NCBI RefSeq assembly: GCF_011057685.1
Contig: NZ_LNFY01000010.1
Location: 1 to 64,000, forward strand
Reading direction: 5' to 3'
DNA: 64,000 nucleotides
Source of the DNA: Thermotoga sp. Ku-13t
Lineage (GTDB): Bacteria; Thermotogota; Thermotogae; Thermotogales; DSM-5069
Shown here one piece after another: positions 52,820 through 58,819 of the stretch. A program made the position numbers and the translations under genes. Each line of letters opens with the position of its first letter. Within the stretch, counting starts at the first letter, position 1. Under the pieces are notes generated by a model that did not search any database, had not been told where the DNA came from, and saw only the letters and a program-made list of their open reading frames with translations.

Positions 52820-53473
52820 TTATTTCTTTCTCCACATCGCTACGTAGATCGCCCCGCAGTTTCCGGCTCTCACACCCGCGAGGTTTGCTTCTTCGTAAGG
52901 TGGAGAGGCGTTTGGGGAGAGGAAAACTGCCTCCGCTTCGGATTCACACGGTCCGAGGAGTTCGATGAGATCTTCTTTCGTGTAAAATCGAGCGTGAGAC
53001 CAGGGTTTGACGCCTCTATCTGAAAGCTTGCGATACAGCGCCACCCAGGGGGATAAGCCGTTCAGAATGCCGACCACCAAGGCTCCATTTTGTTTCAGTA
53101 CCCTCAGCGATTCATTCAGAACTTTTTGAGGATCCTGAACGAACTCGAGGGTTGTGAAGATGAGGACAACGTCGAAGCTTTCGTCGTGCAGGGGTAATTC
53201 TTCACCCTTGGCACAGATCCACTGGGCCGAAGGTACGTTCTTCCTTCCGATTTCGAGCATGATCGTGGACGGTTCCACGGCGACCATGACCGGATAGTTC
53301 AGCCTTCTCAACCACCAACCAGTTCCAGCACCAATTTCGAGGAGTCTTTCGCCCGCAGGAATCAGCTTCTTCAACGCTTTCTCTTCTTCCTTTATAACGA
53401 AGGAACCTAAGGGAGTTTCGTACCAGCTTTCGTAGTCGTGGGCAATTTCGGCGAAAACGTCTTTGAAGCTCAT
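52820..53473 (-). CDS. SAM-dependent methyltransferase (class I)
   Basis: 217 residues. Motif I is LLEIGAGTGWWLRRL, motif II/III VAVEPSTIMLEIG, and post-motif LPLHDESFDVVLIFTTLEFV places it with UbiE/BioC-like small-molecule methyltransferases (Methyltransf_11). The ATG overlaps the stop of the MacB-like permease by 4 nt, so it is the last gene of the efflux operon. It may modify the exported compound or be unrelated. Confidence 0.88.
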   Translation of the reverse strand: MSFKDVFAEIAHDYESWYETPLGSFVIKEEEKALKKLIPAGERLLEIGAGTGWWLRRLNYPVMVAVEPSTIMLEIGRKNVPSAQWICAKGEELPLHDESFDVVLIFTTLEFVQDPQKVLNESLRVLKQNGALVVGILNGLSPWVALYRKLSDRGVKPWSHARFYTKEDLIELLGPCESEAEAVFLSPNASPPYEEANLAGVRAGNCGAIYVAMWRKK

Positions 53474-54672
53474 TCGTACCTGAGAGCCTCCACTGGATCG
53501 AGTTTTGACGCCCTCACGGCAGGCCAGACACCGAAGAACAGACCCACCAGGATAGAGACGGAAACAGCTATGAGAACCACACCGGGTGTCACGGCGGTTT
53601 GTATCGAGCCGATGCTCGCTATGAGCTTGGATAGGCCAAAACCCGCTGCGATGCCCAGCAATCCTGCGACGAAGGTGAGCACGATCGATTCGAGCAGGAA
53701 CTGAAGCAGAATGTGCCTTCGACTGGCTCCAATCGCTTTTCGAATGCCAATCTCTCTGGTTCTTTCCGTCACCGTAACGAGCATTATGTTCATTATGCCT
53801 ATGCCACCCACGAGCAGCGAGATGCCCGCGATACTACCCAGCATGAAGCTCAGCATGGCCATCGTCTGGTTCACAGTCTCCAAAAGTGCGTCCTGGCTCA
53901 CTATTCTGTATCTCTCTTCATCCTTGAACTTCTCGAACAGAACGGAGTCTATTTCCGAGACCGCCTGGTTCGCCAGATTTTCTGAGATGGCCTGGGCAAC
54001 TATCATCGAGACGTTTCTTCGTCTGAAGAGCCTGTTCTCGGCGGACGAGAAGGGCACTATGATGGATCTATCCGGATTGAGAAACAGGAGATTTCCACTT
54101 TTCTCGAGCACACCTATGATCGTGTAGGTCTGCCTGATGGAGCCGCTCGTGATCCTTATGGTCTGTCCCAGAGCGTTGCCGTCAGGGAAAAGCTCGTCTG
54201 CAACTTCCTTCCCTATGACTGCCACACGACGTCTTTCATCCGAGCTGTCAAAGAATTCTCCGTGGGCGAGTTTGACGTTCATCATGTCGAACAACACCGC
54301 TCTTGCGGCCAGAACAGTTGCCATGCTGTTCTGTCTTTCGTACTGAACGATGAAGTTTCCCTGCTGGATTGGCGTCACGTGCCTGACGGAGGGACAGAGC
54401 TGGGCTATCATGTCAGCATCTTCCTTTTCGAGAGTTTCTGTGAGCGCCGTGGCGGCGCGTCCGCCTCCACCCCTCGTGAACCCGGCAGTGACGAGTATGA
54501 GGTTCGAACCTATGGACGTCAGAGACCGTCTGATGCTCCTGCTCGTACCCTCGGCGACCGAAACGACACCTATAACGGCCGCCACACCTATGATGATCCC
54601 TATCATGGACAGGGCAGTGCGCAATTTGTTGTGCGCGATGGAACGAAAAGCTTCTTTCAGCATCTCAAGCAT
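53470..54672 (-). CDS. MacB-type ABC transporter permease
   Basis: 400 residues with the four-helix MacB/FtsX architecture: an N-terminal helix (IAHNKLRTALSMIGIIIGVAAVIGV), a large extracytoplasmic MacB_PCD domain, and three C-terminal helices with GIMNIMLVTVTERTREIGIRKAIGASRR. Works as a mechanotransmission pump: ATP hydrolysis inside drives substrate through a periplasmic adaptor and outer-membrane duct. Overlaps the ATPase gene by 8 nt. Confidence 0.92.
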   Translation of the reverse strand: MLEMLKEAFRSIAHNKLRTALSMIGIIIGVAAVIGVVSVAEGTSRSIRRSLTSIGSNLILVTAGFTRGGGGRAATALTETLEKEDADMIAQLCPSVRHVTPIQQGNFIVQYERQNSMATVLAARAVLFDMMNVKLAHGEFFDSSDERRRVAVIGKEVADELFPDGNALGQTIRITSGSIRQTYTIIGVLEKSGNLLFLNPDRSIIVPFSSAENRLFRRRNVSMIVAQAISENLANQAVSEIDSVLFEKFKDEERYRIVSQDALLETVNQTMAMLSFMLGSIAGISLLVGGIGIMNIMLVTVTERTREIGIRKAIGASRRHILLQFLLESIVLTFVAGLLGIAAGFGLSKLIASIGSIQTAVTPGVVLIAVSVSILVGLFFGVWPAVRASKLDPVEALRYE

Positions 54673-55357
54673 GTGTGTTCACCTCTTCGGCCACGATCTT
54701 GCCGTCGCGCATGCGAATTATCCGATCTCCCTGTTTGGCAACTTCGGGATCGTGTGTGACTATGACCACGGTCTGGCCCCTCTCGTTCAATTCGGAGAAG
54801 ATCTTCAATATTTCTTCTCCGCTCTTTGAATCCAGGTTCCCGGTCGGTTCATCTGCGAGCAGCACGACAGGATCGTTCGCGAGCGCCCTCGCTATGGCAA
54901 CTCTTTGCATCTGGCCTCCGGACAGCTGTGTCGGTCTGTGGTGCAATCTGTCTCCAAGTCCAACCAGTTCGAGCAACTCTTTAGCCCTTTTGCGCCTCAG
55001 TGACTTCGGAACGCCCGCGTAGATCATCGGCAGTTCAACGTTCTCGAGGGCAGTCAGACGGGAGAGCAAATTAAACTGCTGAAAGACGAACCCGATCATT
55101 TTGTTCCTCACCTTTGCAAGCTGTGCATCGCTGAGTTTTGATACAGGTGTCGAAGCGATGTATATCTCACCTTCGGTGGGTTTATCGAGACAGCCCATCA
55201 GATGGAGCAGGGTGGTCTTGCCACTTCCAGACGGTCCCATCACGATCAAGAACTCACCTTCTTCAACCGTCAGGCTCACACCGTCCAGTGCTCTGACTTC
55301 GGTTTCACCCATTCTGTATATCTTCCTGACGTTCTCGACCCTTATGATCTCGGCCAC
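54665..55357 (-). CDS. MacB/LolD-type ABC ATPase
   Basis: 230 residues. Walker A GPSGSGKTT, Q-loop (GFVFQQFNLL), signature LSGGQMQRVAIARALAND, Walker B VVLLADEPTGNLDSKSG and the His switch VTHDPEVA. The GTG after GAGGTGAACACC is chosen over the GTG three codons upstream, which is part of the ribosome site. In MacB the ATPase and permease are fused; here they are separate, as in LolCDE. Confidence 0.92.
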   Translation of the reverse strand: MAEIIRVENVRKIYRMGETEVRALDGVSLTVEEGEFLIVMGPSGSGKTTLLHLMGCLDKPTEGEIYIASTPVSKLSDAQLAKVRNKMIGFVFQQFNLLSRLTALENVELPMIYAGVPKSLRRKRAKELLELVGLGDRLHHRPTQLSGGQMQRVAIARALANDPVVLLADEPTGNLDSKSGEEILKIFSELNERGQTVVIVTHDPEVAKQGDRIIRMRDGKIVAEEVNTHA

Positions 55358-55367
55358 GGTGTTCACC

Positions 55368-56498
55368 TCACGGTCTGAAGAAGACGTTGGGAGGAACGTT
55401 CTGTGTTCGATTAGTCGTTGTTCTGCCGGTCACGAGCACGACCTCGCCTTCCTGAAGGCCTTCCACAACTTCGTAGAAGTTGCTCGTTCTCACACCCAGA
55501 ACGATCTCTCTTTCCTCCGTTGTACCGTCAGATTTCTTGACGGTGACATAGGCCTTTCCAGAAGAAAATTTGACGGCGTTGACCGGCACAGCCAGCACGT
55601 TTTCTTTGCTCATCGTGATGATGTTGACTTCGCAGGAAAGTCCGGGAATAATCTTGGAGTTTTGAGTTTGAGCGGTACTTTGCTGCTGCCTCTGAGGTAT
55701 CTGCTGACCTGTAGCGATCTGTGTTCTCAGCTGCTGTAATCTCTGCTGCAATTGCGTTCGTTCTTCTTCGCTCATCTGACTGAGTCTGCTACCGAGTTGT
55801 GAAACATTCACGCCCATCAGATCCAGTTCGATGGGGACAACCACGATTCCCTGCGAGGTCTCTGCCACACTCGAGATGTAAGTCACCCTCGCACCGACAT
55901 TCAAACCTTCTATCGCGTCGAAACTGACCGTTGCGATCTGTCCCAGAGCGATCTTCGAATAATCGACTTCATCCACGGAGGCCGAGACGTAAAGCTTTTC
56001 TAGATTCACAACCCTGCCGATGATCTTTCCGGAACTGATCAGATCGCCTTCCTTGATGTCGATCGAAGTGATCACACCGCTTATTGGACTGACGATTTTG
56101 CAGTTTTCGATGTCCCTCTTCGCCAGTTCGAGTTCTATCTCGCGCTGCTGGATCAAAAGCTTTGAGCCAGAATTCTTCGCCGTCTCATAGTTCTGGAGGG
56201 CCTTTATGTACGCGAGCCTGTATTCAGTATCGTCCAGTTCGGCTATCACATCACCAGCTTTGACGCTGTCGCCTTTGGACACATACACTTTTTTCACTAT
56301 GCCGGACACGAATGGTTTGATGTCTACGTATTCTCTCGCCTGGACGGTGCCAGAGAGCGTTACAGTATCGGTCAAATTCGTTTTCGAAACCACGTACTCG
56401 CTCACCTGAACTGTGCTCGTCTGTGTGGTGTTTTTGTTGCAGGATACGAACACCAAAGAGACGAAGAGGATCAGAACGATCCAGCGTACTCTGCGCAC
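55368..56498 (-). CDS. MacA/HlyD-type periplasmic adaptor, predicted lipoprotein
   Basis: 376 residues with a signal peptide ending in FVSC (possible lipobox, Cys about 20). The biotinyl-lipoyl-like domain (VDIKPFVSGIVKKVYVSKGDSVKAGDVIAELD), a helical hairpin of only about 35 residues, a beta-barrel domain and a C-terminal membrane-proximal domain are recognisable. Within the barrel region there is a Gln-rich insert (QLQQRLQQLRTQIATGQQIPQRQQQ) of about 55 residues. GTG start 7 nt after GGGAGGTG. It bridges the ABC pump and a TolC-type duct. Confidence 0.92.
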   Translation of the reverse strand: MRRVRWIVLILFVSLVFVSCNKNTTQTSTVQVSEYVVSKTNLTDTVTLSGTVQAREYVDIKPFVSGIVKKVYVSKGDSVKAGDVIAELDDTEYRLAYIKALQNYETAKNSGSKLLIQQREIELELAKRDIENCKIVSPISGVITSIDIKEGDLISSGKIIGRVVNLEKLYVSASVDEVDYSKIALGQIATVSFDAIEGLNVGARVTYISSVAETSQGIVVVPIELDLMGVNVSQLGSRLSQMSEEERTQLQQRLQQLRTQIATGQQIPQRQQQSTAQTQNSKIIPGLSCEVNIITMSKENVLAVPVNAVKFSSGKAYVTVKKSDGTTEEREIVLGVRTSNFYEVVEGLQEGEVVLVTGRTTTNRTQNVPPNVFFRP

Positions 56499-56500
56499 GC

Positions 56501-57805
56501 TCAAGCACCTCCCAAAAGCTCAATCAGGTCTAACCCCAGGACCGTCAAAAGGTTCACCTTGCTCATCAACAGGTCGAACTCCGCCTTGAAGAGTTCGAGT
56601 TCAGCCTCTTCGACGTCGAGTAAGGCCGATTCGAGATCCTGCTCTGAGACGAACTCTTTCTTTTTGTTCAATCTGTCCAGATTCATTTTCTTCAGTTCCA
56701 GATCGAGCCCACTGACCTGTTTCGAAATCTCCGCGATCCTCATCGAAGCGTACGCGTCCTTCACCGCTTTTTCTAAACTTTGCAGTTTTTCTTCGTAACT
56801 GGCATTCTGCAGGTTGAGCTTGTACTGGGTTATTCTGTAAGTCTGTGATCTTTCACCCCTGTCGATGAGATCGTAGCTGAACGAAAAGCCGAGCGATACG
56901 GAATAGCCTTCTTCCTTCAGTTTCAATCCTGCGCTCAGAGTCGGGTTCGGTAGCCAGGTCTGGTAAGACCTTTCACTCTGTTTTTTAGCGATCTGCAGTG
57001 AAATGTAAGAAGCCTGGGCGTCGTATCGTGATTTGACAGTTTCGAGTGCCTCTTGTTCATCTGGAAGCTCAAATGTGAGCCGGCGCAGCTGGTTCATCAT
57101 AGTACCCAGAACGGTCTGTGAATAATCTTTCGATACGCCGGATCTGATCTGTTTTATCTTTTCAAGTTGCAGAACGAGATTCTGCAGCTGCTTTTGGGTG
57201 CTGAGTATATCTTCATAGGCGACGCTCCCAGTCTCGTAAGCTTTTCTCAATTCTTCCATCTGCTCGTTCAGGAGCTGGAGCCTTTTCGAGGTGATTTCGA
57301 GTTTCTTCGCATAATAGTAGCTGTTGAAAACATCGTTTGCGGTGTTCACAAAGACATTGTTCTTCACAGACAGAAGCTTCCAGCTCGCATCGAAAAGATT
57401 CTTCTGCTTTTCAAGCTGGTCCAGATCGAAGTTTGAAAACAAACTCCTGGAGACGGAAAACGTCCAGCCAGAATCTCTCCATTCTTTTCTCGAAGAAGAA
57501 TACACCCAGCTGTTTGAGATGGAAAAGTTGAACCCTGCGATGTTCAAAAAGGTTATCGAGAGCGGCACGTTCACCGTGTAGGTCAGATCGCTGTCGGAAA
57601 TCGATGCGCTGACAGTGAATCTATCCAACCCAACGTAAGGTATGAGTATGTTTTTGTCTTTCTGAACCTGAAAAACAGCTTCTTCGTAAGAAAGCTTTGC
57701 AGAAAGATAGTTCACATCGTTCTGCAGATTCTTCTGAACTTCGTCCAGGAAGGAAGCCAGCGCAAGGCCTGGCAACAACAACAGCAGAAGGACCTTTTTG
57801 ATCAT
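56501..57805 (-). CDS. TolC-family outer-membrane efflux protein
   Basis: 434 residues. Signal peptide MIKKVLLLLLLPGLALA, then two helix-strand repeats. Beta-strand pairs of the barrel appear at about 55-115 (VGLDRFTVSASISDSDLTYTV and following) and 285-310 (LSAGLKLKEEGYSVSLGFSF, of the YDL type). Long coiled-coil helices lie between (TSKRLQLLNEQMEELRKAYETGSVAYEDIL). In Thermotogales it should insert in the toga. It is the second gene of the operon and its stop lies just before the adaptor start. Confidence 0.9.
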   Translation of the reverse strand: MIKKVLLLLLLPGLALASFLDEVQKNLQNDVNYLSAKLSYEEAVFQVQKDKNILIPYVGLDRFTVSASISDSDLTYTVNVPLSITFLNIAGFNFSISNSWVYSSSRKEWRDSGWTFSVSRSLFSNFDLDQLEKQKNLFDASWKLLSVKNNVFVNTANDVFNSYYYAKKLEITSKRLQLLNEQMEELRKAYETGSVAYEDILSTQKQLQNLVLQLEKIKQIRSGVSKDYSQTVLGTMMNQLRRLTFELPDEQEALETVKSRYDAQASYISLQIAKKQSERSYQTWLPNPTLSAGLKLKEEGYSVSLGFSFSYDLIDRGERSQTYRITQYKLNLQNASYEEKLQSLEKAVKDAYASMRIAEISKQVSGLDLELKKMNLDRLNKKKEFVSEQDLESALLDVEEAELELFKAEFDLLMSKVNLLTVLGLDLIELLGGA

Positions 57806-57811
57806 GGTCCA

Positions 57812-58819
57812 TCACTCTCCAAGGATCGTCGAAAGGACCTTGGAGAAATCGAGTTCCGCATCGATGTACACATCGCACACGTTCTTTAAAAGAGATTTCA
57901 ACTGCGAAAGGAATGTTCTTCTTGCATTCGTATAAGAAAGCTTTGCGTTCAGCACGTCCCGTTCAGATGCTACACCTGCGGAGAAATTCTTTTGAACGGT
58001 GTCGAGCTGCAGTTTCGCAACCTCGATCTTTTCCATCTGCGCCTGGATAGACTTGATAGCATTTCGAACGGTTTGAAGTTGATTTTCGTACGATTTTCTC
58101 AACGACAACAGATACGCCTGAACGTCAGCCTGGGCTTTTTTCAAATTCCTCTCGTACTGATTCTTCGTGTACTGCGACGGATTCACTAAACCTTCAAGGT
58201 CCATCTGTGCGATCTGAACGTTCAGCCTGGCCATGGCGAGCGTGAGCGATCTGTCCATGAGTTCATCGACTGTGGGCAGAGAGAAGTTCAGGTTCAACTT
58301 CGCCGGTTCTTTCACTTCGAACTTTTCTCCCACGAGCGCCTGAAAGTCTCTTTTCGCCTGTTCCACAGATAGTTTTGCGGCATCAACATCCTTTTCCGCC
58401 TCTATGAGCGTGGCGTTCGCATTTTTGAGATCCTGGAGTGTTCCGACACCTCTGTCATAAAGGTCTTTCTTTTCTTTGTAATCAATCTGTGCGATCTGCA
58501 GATTCAGCTGGGCTATCTCGAGCGCCAGCTGCGAGTCGAGCACGCCAAAATACGTGTCAAGAAAATCGCTCACGAAATTCTTCAAAGATTCTCTGTATGT
58601 GTTGTCGGCCCTCATTTTCGAAAGCTGGGCTGAAAGTTCCTGCCTCTTGTTCCTCGCTTCCAGCAACGCCTTCTGGTAATCGTCCTCGGCCTGTTCGCGG
58701 TCCAGTGTGAGTTTCAAATACGCTGGACTGCTGTTCTTGGCAGCTTCCAGAGCATCGACGATGCCTGCGAACATCGAGCAAACGAACACCACGAGCAATA
58801 GAACAGTGAGCCGCTTCAT
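57812..58819 (-). CDS. TolC-like coiled-coil protein apparently lacking barrel strands
   Basis: 335 residues. Signal peptide to about FAG (residue 19), then an internal duplication of long helices typical of TolC (LEIAQLNLQIAQIDYKEKKDLYDRGVGTLQDLKNANATLIEAEKDV in the first, VAKLQLDTVQKNFSAGVASERDVLNAKLSYTNARRTFL in the second). Where TolC proteins insert pairs of transmembrane strands, this one has short helical linkers (SKMRADNTYRESLKN and NPSQYTKNQYER). It therefore looks like the periplasmic tunnel part alone. First gene of the efflux operon, 6 nt before the true TolC. Possible role: extra tunnel or adaptor segment. Confidence 0.8.
   Translation of the reverse strand: MKRLTVLLLVVFVCSMFAGIVDALEAAKNSSPAYLKLTLDREQAEDDYQKALLEARNKRQELSAQLSKMRADNTYRESLKNFVSDFLDTYFGVLDSQLALEIAQLNLQIAQIDYKEKKDLYDRGVGTLQDLKNANATLIEAEKDVDAAKLSVEQAKRDFQALVGEKFEVKEPAKLNLNFSLPTVDELMDRSLTLAMARLNVQIAQMDLEGLVNPSQYTKNQYERNLKKAQADVQAYLLSLRKSYENQLQTVRNAIKSIQAQMEKIEVAKLQLDTVQKNFSAGVASERDVLNAKLSYTNARRTFLSQLKSLLKNVCDVYIDAELDFSKVLSTILGE

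Follow-up and report, generated by a model that had tools for sequence, protein, structure and literature searches.

A predicted barrel-less TolC homologue encoded beside a barrel-bearing TolC in a MacAB-like operon of Thermotogota

In the window, i.e., the whole analysed stretch of 64,000 nucleotides of Thermotoga sp. Ku-13t DNA, the operon of a MacAB-like exporter starts with two genes of the TolC family. To our knowledge, the route of every described MacAB-type pump to the outer membrane consists of one adaptor plus one fixed-length TolC. What the first of the two proteins might contribute to such a pump was the question raised by this locus.

The operon and the predicted fold of its first product

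The first gene (57812..58819, minus strand) is an open reading frame coding for a barrel-less TolC-like protein of 335 aa, named here T0. After a gap of 6 bp, it is followed downstream by the gene of P0002 (56501..57805, minus strand), a TolC-family protein of 434 aa with predicted beta strands (Pfam OEP, 4e-16; Z 21.2 for its AlphaFold2 model compared with TolC). The remaining genes, on the same strand, encode a HlyD/MacA-like periplasmic adaptor of 378 aa (55368..56504; HlyD_D23, 6e-21; RND_mfp, 2e-42), a MacB/LolD-type ATPase of 233 aa (54665..55366; ABC_tran, 3e-34; MacB, 5e-84) and a MacB-like permease of 400 aa with MacB_PCD and FtsX domains (53470..54672; 2e-42 and 3e-22, respectively). 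From P0002 to the permease, the consecutive genes overlap or abut. A lipobox scan revealed a lipobox-like FVSC near the N-terminus of the adaptor, and the N-terminus of T0, judged by eye, was signal-like, with the remainder of the chain all-helical. On balance, the operon probably encodes a MacAB-like exporter with four parts, T0 included.

T0 matched the Pfam OEP (TolC) family with an E-value of 3e-14, its score of 53.7 bits clearing the cut-off of 22. The match fell into two stretches, the best of which began only at profile position 79. In an alignment of a 26-row T0 profile with the solved structure of OprM, T0 positions 50 and 68 stood opposite OprM 77 and 141, and the first beta-hairpin, of about 46 residues, was missing from T0. 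The AlphaFold2 model, obtained from an alignment of 7 rows (6 rows for P0002), consisted of helices only, with zero strands, at a pLDDT of 91.5 and a pTM of 0.83. The first helix pair comprised residues 32-54, a 3-residue turn (55-57) and residues 58-122, and the second one residues 192-209, a 6-residue turn (210-215) and residues 216-280. Compared with E. coli TolC (residues 1-418), the model gave Z 21.9 and rmsd 3.9 over 318 aligned residues, with unrelated helical rows of the same comparison scoring Z about 8.6 and below. A PDB search with the T0 sequence alone yielded weak TolC matches and apolipoprotein coiled-coil noise.

The doubled coiled-coil pattern of TolC noticed in the initial annotation was thus borne out by the two OEP stretches, the long helices and the structural match. 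Its description of the barrel positions held with a small correction: the model contained no strands there, and the supposed short helical linkers proved to be tight helix-helix turns and not helices of their own. According to these data, T0 is a TolC homologue predicted to lack both beta-hairpins cleanly and to keep the full-length helices of the alpha-barrel. Without either beta-hairpin, an outer-membrane barrel could not form from T0. Assignment of T0 to the adaptor family was also considered and rejected, as neither a Pfam match to the lipoyl and beta-barrel domains of HlyD/MFP adaptors nor any predicted strand was found in T0.

Strands were predicted in just one of the two AlphaFold monomers, as had been anticipated. 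In P0002, the first barrel insert (residues 53-121; 57443..57649, minus strand) contained four predicted strands (64-70, 73-89, 92-103 and 108-121) and the second one (residues 285-312; 56870..56953, minus strand) two (287-297 and 300-310), with pLDDT of about 50-80 in these parts. P0002 may therefore possess six strands per chain versus four in TolC, as far as this model of modest confidence can tell, in which case the barrel of its trimer would be 18-stranded. The long helices of P0002 (126-191 and 316-381, 66 aa) are nearly as long as those of T0 (58-122 and 216-280, 65 aa), which indicates that only the barrel is gone from T0. At least one tip by which an adaptor might dock directly is kept in P0002.

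The common fold and helix length, the adjacent genes and the probably similar expression would also suit a single mixed barrel assembled from neighbouring T0 and TolC subunits. Such co-assembly is highly improbable, because a closed outer-membrane barrel requires the full set of strands, beyond what T0 can supply, and because it leaves the short adaptor hairpins, described below, without explanation.

The two turns of T0 that replace the barrel were characterized using the model, conservation and hydropathy. The H2-H3 turn (residues 48-66; 58622..58678, minus strand), at the site of the first TolC beta-hairpin, exceeded all other regions of T0 in conservation (0.507 versus a mean of 0.424) and was polar, with a hydropathy of -1.02. 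The H6-H7 turn (residues 205-225; 58145..58207, minus strand), at the site of the second hairpin, carried the conserved residues E209, S215, Y217 and E223 and had a hydropathy of -1.54. Such polarity makes both turns unsuited to a membrane. At the opposite end, the alignments identified two TolC-like periplasmic tips, tip 1 at residues 116-133 (YDRGVGTLQDL; 58421..58474, minus strand) and tip 2 at residues 274-291 (GVASERDVL, with G282 invariant; 57947..58000, minus strand), whose loops carry GVGT and GVAS, respectively. Mean conservation was 0.478 for the two upper turns, 0.467 for the tips and 0.417 for the rest of the chain, and the value of the turns was reached by 15 of 301 circular shifts. 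The upper turns are among the best-conserved parts of T0, modestly above background, which is a suggestive and not a strong signal.

Occurrence of the T0-TolC pair in Thermotogota and Bacillota

Among 41 near relatives, T0 was detected in 22 and its TolC in 23, the additional TolC-bearing genome (G035) having this gene at a contig end. Across the phylum, T0 was present in 54 of 103 Thermotogota genomes and in 11 families, and the order T0-TolC-adaptor-ATPase-permease was kept wherever the contig was long enough, with the exception of G050. Every complete operon of the T0 type, in Thermotogota and Bacillota alike, contained two TolC-family genes, and the TolC of the operon was found in none of the 18 tested Thermotogota genomes devoid of T0. 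The recurrent five-gene order in 11 families confirmed that the pair is conserved. Most genomes of family f3 of the order have no such operon. In the draft assembly of G050, T0 (L116:1640-2647, plus strand) is followed by a gene of the opposite strand and the genome gave no TolC match; its sister genomes carry the whole operon, so this case reflects either an assembly break or a real loss.

These searches relied on proteins and alignments, since a Pfam OEP search across the whole genome of origin missed both T0 and P0002 even though both clear the hmmscan cut-off, which makes absence calls by that route unsafe.

Two other kinds of OEP-like or T0-like genes were noticed in Thermotogota. Family f7 possesses a second T0-like protein, about 344 aa long and standing alone (L117:4240-5271, minus strand; L118:2598-3635, plus strand; L119:1107-2141, minus strand), encoded between prmA or radical-SAM genes, with no adjoining pump genes and no Pfam match. 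In another locus (L121:4717-5343, minus strand), a gene for a half-size OEP protein of 208 aa with one repeat adjoins that of a HerA-like ATPase.

The lengths of all Thermotogota T0s (319-368 aa) and all their TolCs (416-465 aa) fell into separate ranges, and so did the connectors at the barrel positions, of 32-36 and 29-30 residues in T0s versus 95-132 and 55-68 in the neighbouring TolCs, with no overlap. The barrel-less connectors were common to 41 Thermotogota T0s, well beyond what chance would give. The dN/dS ratio was 0.056-0.074 for T0 and 0.058-0.135 for TolC, and T0 is under purifying selection.

The strict co-occurrence with TolC and the conserved turns would also fit a dedicated partner, i.e., a plug, chaperone or regulator capping the entrance of TolC and not serving as a conduit. 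Dedicated caps usually lose the helices that form the lumen. T0, in contrast, keeps the complete two-repeat fold that forms a tube, and a capping role appears distinctly unlikely.

The search was extended to Bacillota by a contig scan with a 10-row alignment. In a sample of 299 Bacillota genomes, the 27 genomes with the best T0 matches (E below 1e-26) all belonged to the 77 Omp85-positive ones. The metagenome-assembled genome of Peptococcaceae bacterium 1109 (L128) carries all five genes arranged as in Thermotogota, and this order was observed in most of the larger loci from 16 Omp85-positive Bacillota genomes, where T0 measures about 350-370 aa (at most 460) and TolC about 440-560 aa. Relatives from Omp85-negative Bacillota were also barrel-less, with connectors of 32-62 and 25-32 aa in all but one outlier. 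They stand with adaptor and pump genes and without TolC (L164, L166, L170 and L172), and T0 proper differs from these monoderm proteins in its Omp85-positive genomes and in the TolC beside it. In two further Omp85-negative loci (L173 and L176), lone barrel-less relatives lie beside an MFP gene and a gene for about 1045 aa, of RND size.

In a quick tree with long branches, well supported at some forks only, all Thermotogota T0s formed one clade beside the T0s of Omp85-positive Bacillota, followed by the lone relatives and apart from the TolCs. The T0 and TolC subtrees agreed with each other. In two loci (L042 and L043, from G018 and G030) of family f3, which otherwise has no operon, T0 and TolC both grouped with family f10. 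The operon thus appears, as judged from sequence, to have moved there as a unit in a joint transfer of T0 and TolC.

These data bear on the explanation that T0 is a decayed and non-functional copy of TolC. T0 is indeed about 100 residues shorter than its neighbour P0002; its length is nevertheless uniform in 41 Thermotogota members and it constitutes a separate old lineage in two phyla. The decayed or truncated duplicate was rejected on the basis of dN/dS, the connectors and the tree, and its probability is practically nil. A sporadic truncated duplicate, one of two outcomes that would have undone the initial annotation, is excluded by the recurrent gene order, the dN/dS of about 0.07 and the separate lineage; the other, four transmembrane strands per T0 monomer, disagrees with the strandless model.

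A short adaptor hairpin and a possible two-piece duct

The helical hairpin insert of the adaptor (residues 85-145; 56070..56252, minus strand) is shortened to 61 aa in the alignment. Compared with A. actinomycetemcomitans MacA (4dk0), the hairpin has lost about 47 aa, corresponding to about 23 residues, or 3.5 nm, in each helix. The insert was 54-62 aa long in all Thermotogota relatives, and in the Omp85-positive Bacillota set (window included) 16 of 18 rows had a length of exactly 61 aa. Beside most of the lone relatives in Omp85-negative genomes, it measured 106-146 aa (the adaptor of L172 aligned badly). The short adaptor hairpin goes with T0, which suggests that T0 takes the place of the hairpin tube and extends it.

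The adaptors also help to weigh the possibility that T0 and TolC alternate on one adaptor, a short T0 duct releasing its substrate into the periplasm or wall and the TolC complexes exporting it outside. Omp85-negative Bacillota possess relatives of T0 with adaptor, ATPase and permease and no TolC, and in cells lacking an outer membrane such barrel-less proteins must work in this manner; the TolC-like tips kept in T0 agree with this as well. However, the adaptors of the lone relatives have mostly long hairpins and those of the five-gene operons short ones, which implies different modes of action, and T0 proper is confined to Omp85-bearing genomes, strictly paired with TolC. Alternation is accordingly held to be rather unlikely.

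The two-piece duct, in which T0 would be stacked under TolC, fits best to the short adaptor hairpin and the strict co-occurrence of T0 and TolC. The conserved upper turns point the same way, modest as their excess over background is; the tip kept in P0002 and the unpaired T0 of G050 speak against it. T0 trimers would form an alpha-barrel of about 10 nm between the short adaptor and TolC in a four-part MacAB-like duct, an arrangement towards which we cautiously lean. T0 would trimerise into an open helical tube of about 10 nm, and its TolC-like tips would dock on the ring of the short-hairpin adaptor. The six upper turns of the trimer, two per chain at the barrel site, would make a six-fold ring of helical hairpins resembling that of an adaptor, on which the tips of the barrel-bearing TolC could dock in turn. 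The presumed trimer would display six turns resembling TolC tips at its lower end and six resembling an adaptor ring at its upper end, a geometry that would permit placing it between adaptor and TolC. The substrate would travel from the adaptor through T0 and TolC to the outside, driven by the MacB-like ATPase and permease, and the hairpin tube of the adaptor would be replaced and lengthened by T0.

According to the initial annotation, such a duct would suit the wide gap between cell and toga. In T. maritima, the toga and the cytoplasmic membrane lie about 50 nm apart (PMC3387000), and the whole MacAB-TolC is about 32 nm long (PMC5985334). At 65 residues x 0.15 nm, T0 would add about 9.8 nm; with about 3.5 nm lost through the shortened hairpin, the net gain would be about 6 nm and the total about 38 nm. 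With one T0, the gap would therefore have to be narrower at the pump sites, or multiple T0 would have to be stacked. The occurrence of five-gene operons in Bacillota means that a toga is not needed for the T0-TolC pair. As the reason for the pair, the toga found partial support at most, since Omp85-positive Bacillota have the operon, most of family f3 does not and about 38 nm falls short of about 50 nm. A duct of variable length, with T0 trimers stacked tip-on-top on one another and on TolC across the toga gap, is a long shot; if true, T0-on-T0 stacking would span a gap beyond the reach of any single known pump.

Relation to known systems

The literature search, covering sources other than subscription papers and preprints, revealed no description of the T0-TolC pair. 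According to the available text of PMC8809574, TolC-like proteins occur in Thermotogae and monoderm Firmicutes, the beta-barrel domain of the C. difficile protein shows an omission, and a site in the S-layer was proposed; one of its legends mentions, without interpreting it, an L. gingivalis operon that contains two TolC-like genes. The partnership of a barrel-less protein with a barrel-bearing TolC in diderms is not described in that part of the paper. The earlier statement that no such system was known thus stands for the pair; it does not stand for barrel-reduced TolC-like proteins as such, which have been published there. The monoderm Firmicutes proteins, as far as that text presents them, resemble T0 in the barrel omission, and the Omp85-negative barrel-less relatives group near T0; they differ in having no barrel-bearing TolC partner and mostly long-hairpin adaptors. 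Placed between adaptor and TolC, T0 would link the outer-membrane TolC to these barrel-less relatives from cells that have no outer membrane, and it would bear on how ducts changed as Bacillota lost or gained outer membranes.

The OmpA1/Omp-alpha spacer of Thermotoga (PMC3387000) is likewise an envelope part bridging the wide gap of about 50 nm under the toga, but it is a coiled-coil tether and not a tube, and it has no kinship with TolC. With the TolC/outer membrane factor family (OEP, PF02321), T0 shares the duplicated OEP repeat and the helix lengths, and it differs from the family in the predicted lack of both beta-hairpins.

The closest known system is represented by MacAB-TolC, which the window operon resembles in combining a MacB_PCD/FtsX permease, a MacB-type ATPase, a HlyD/MacA-type adaptor and a barrel-bearing TolC. 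It differs from MacAB-TolC in starting with an extra gene for a barrel-less TolC, in encoding ATPase and permease by separate genes and in the adaptor hairpin, which is about 47 aa short of that of A. actinomycetemcomitans MacA and so lacks the length typical of tip-to-tip docking with TolC in MacAB-TolC; two tube proteins, and not one, would follow the adaptor in T0 operons. A conserved barrel-less TolC between adaptor and TolC would constitute a modular lengthening of a trans-envelope duct, and its direct structural and genetic testing is feasible in culturable organisms.
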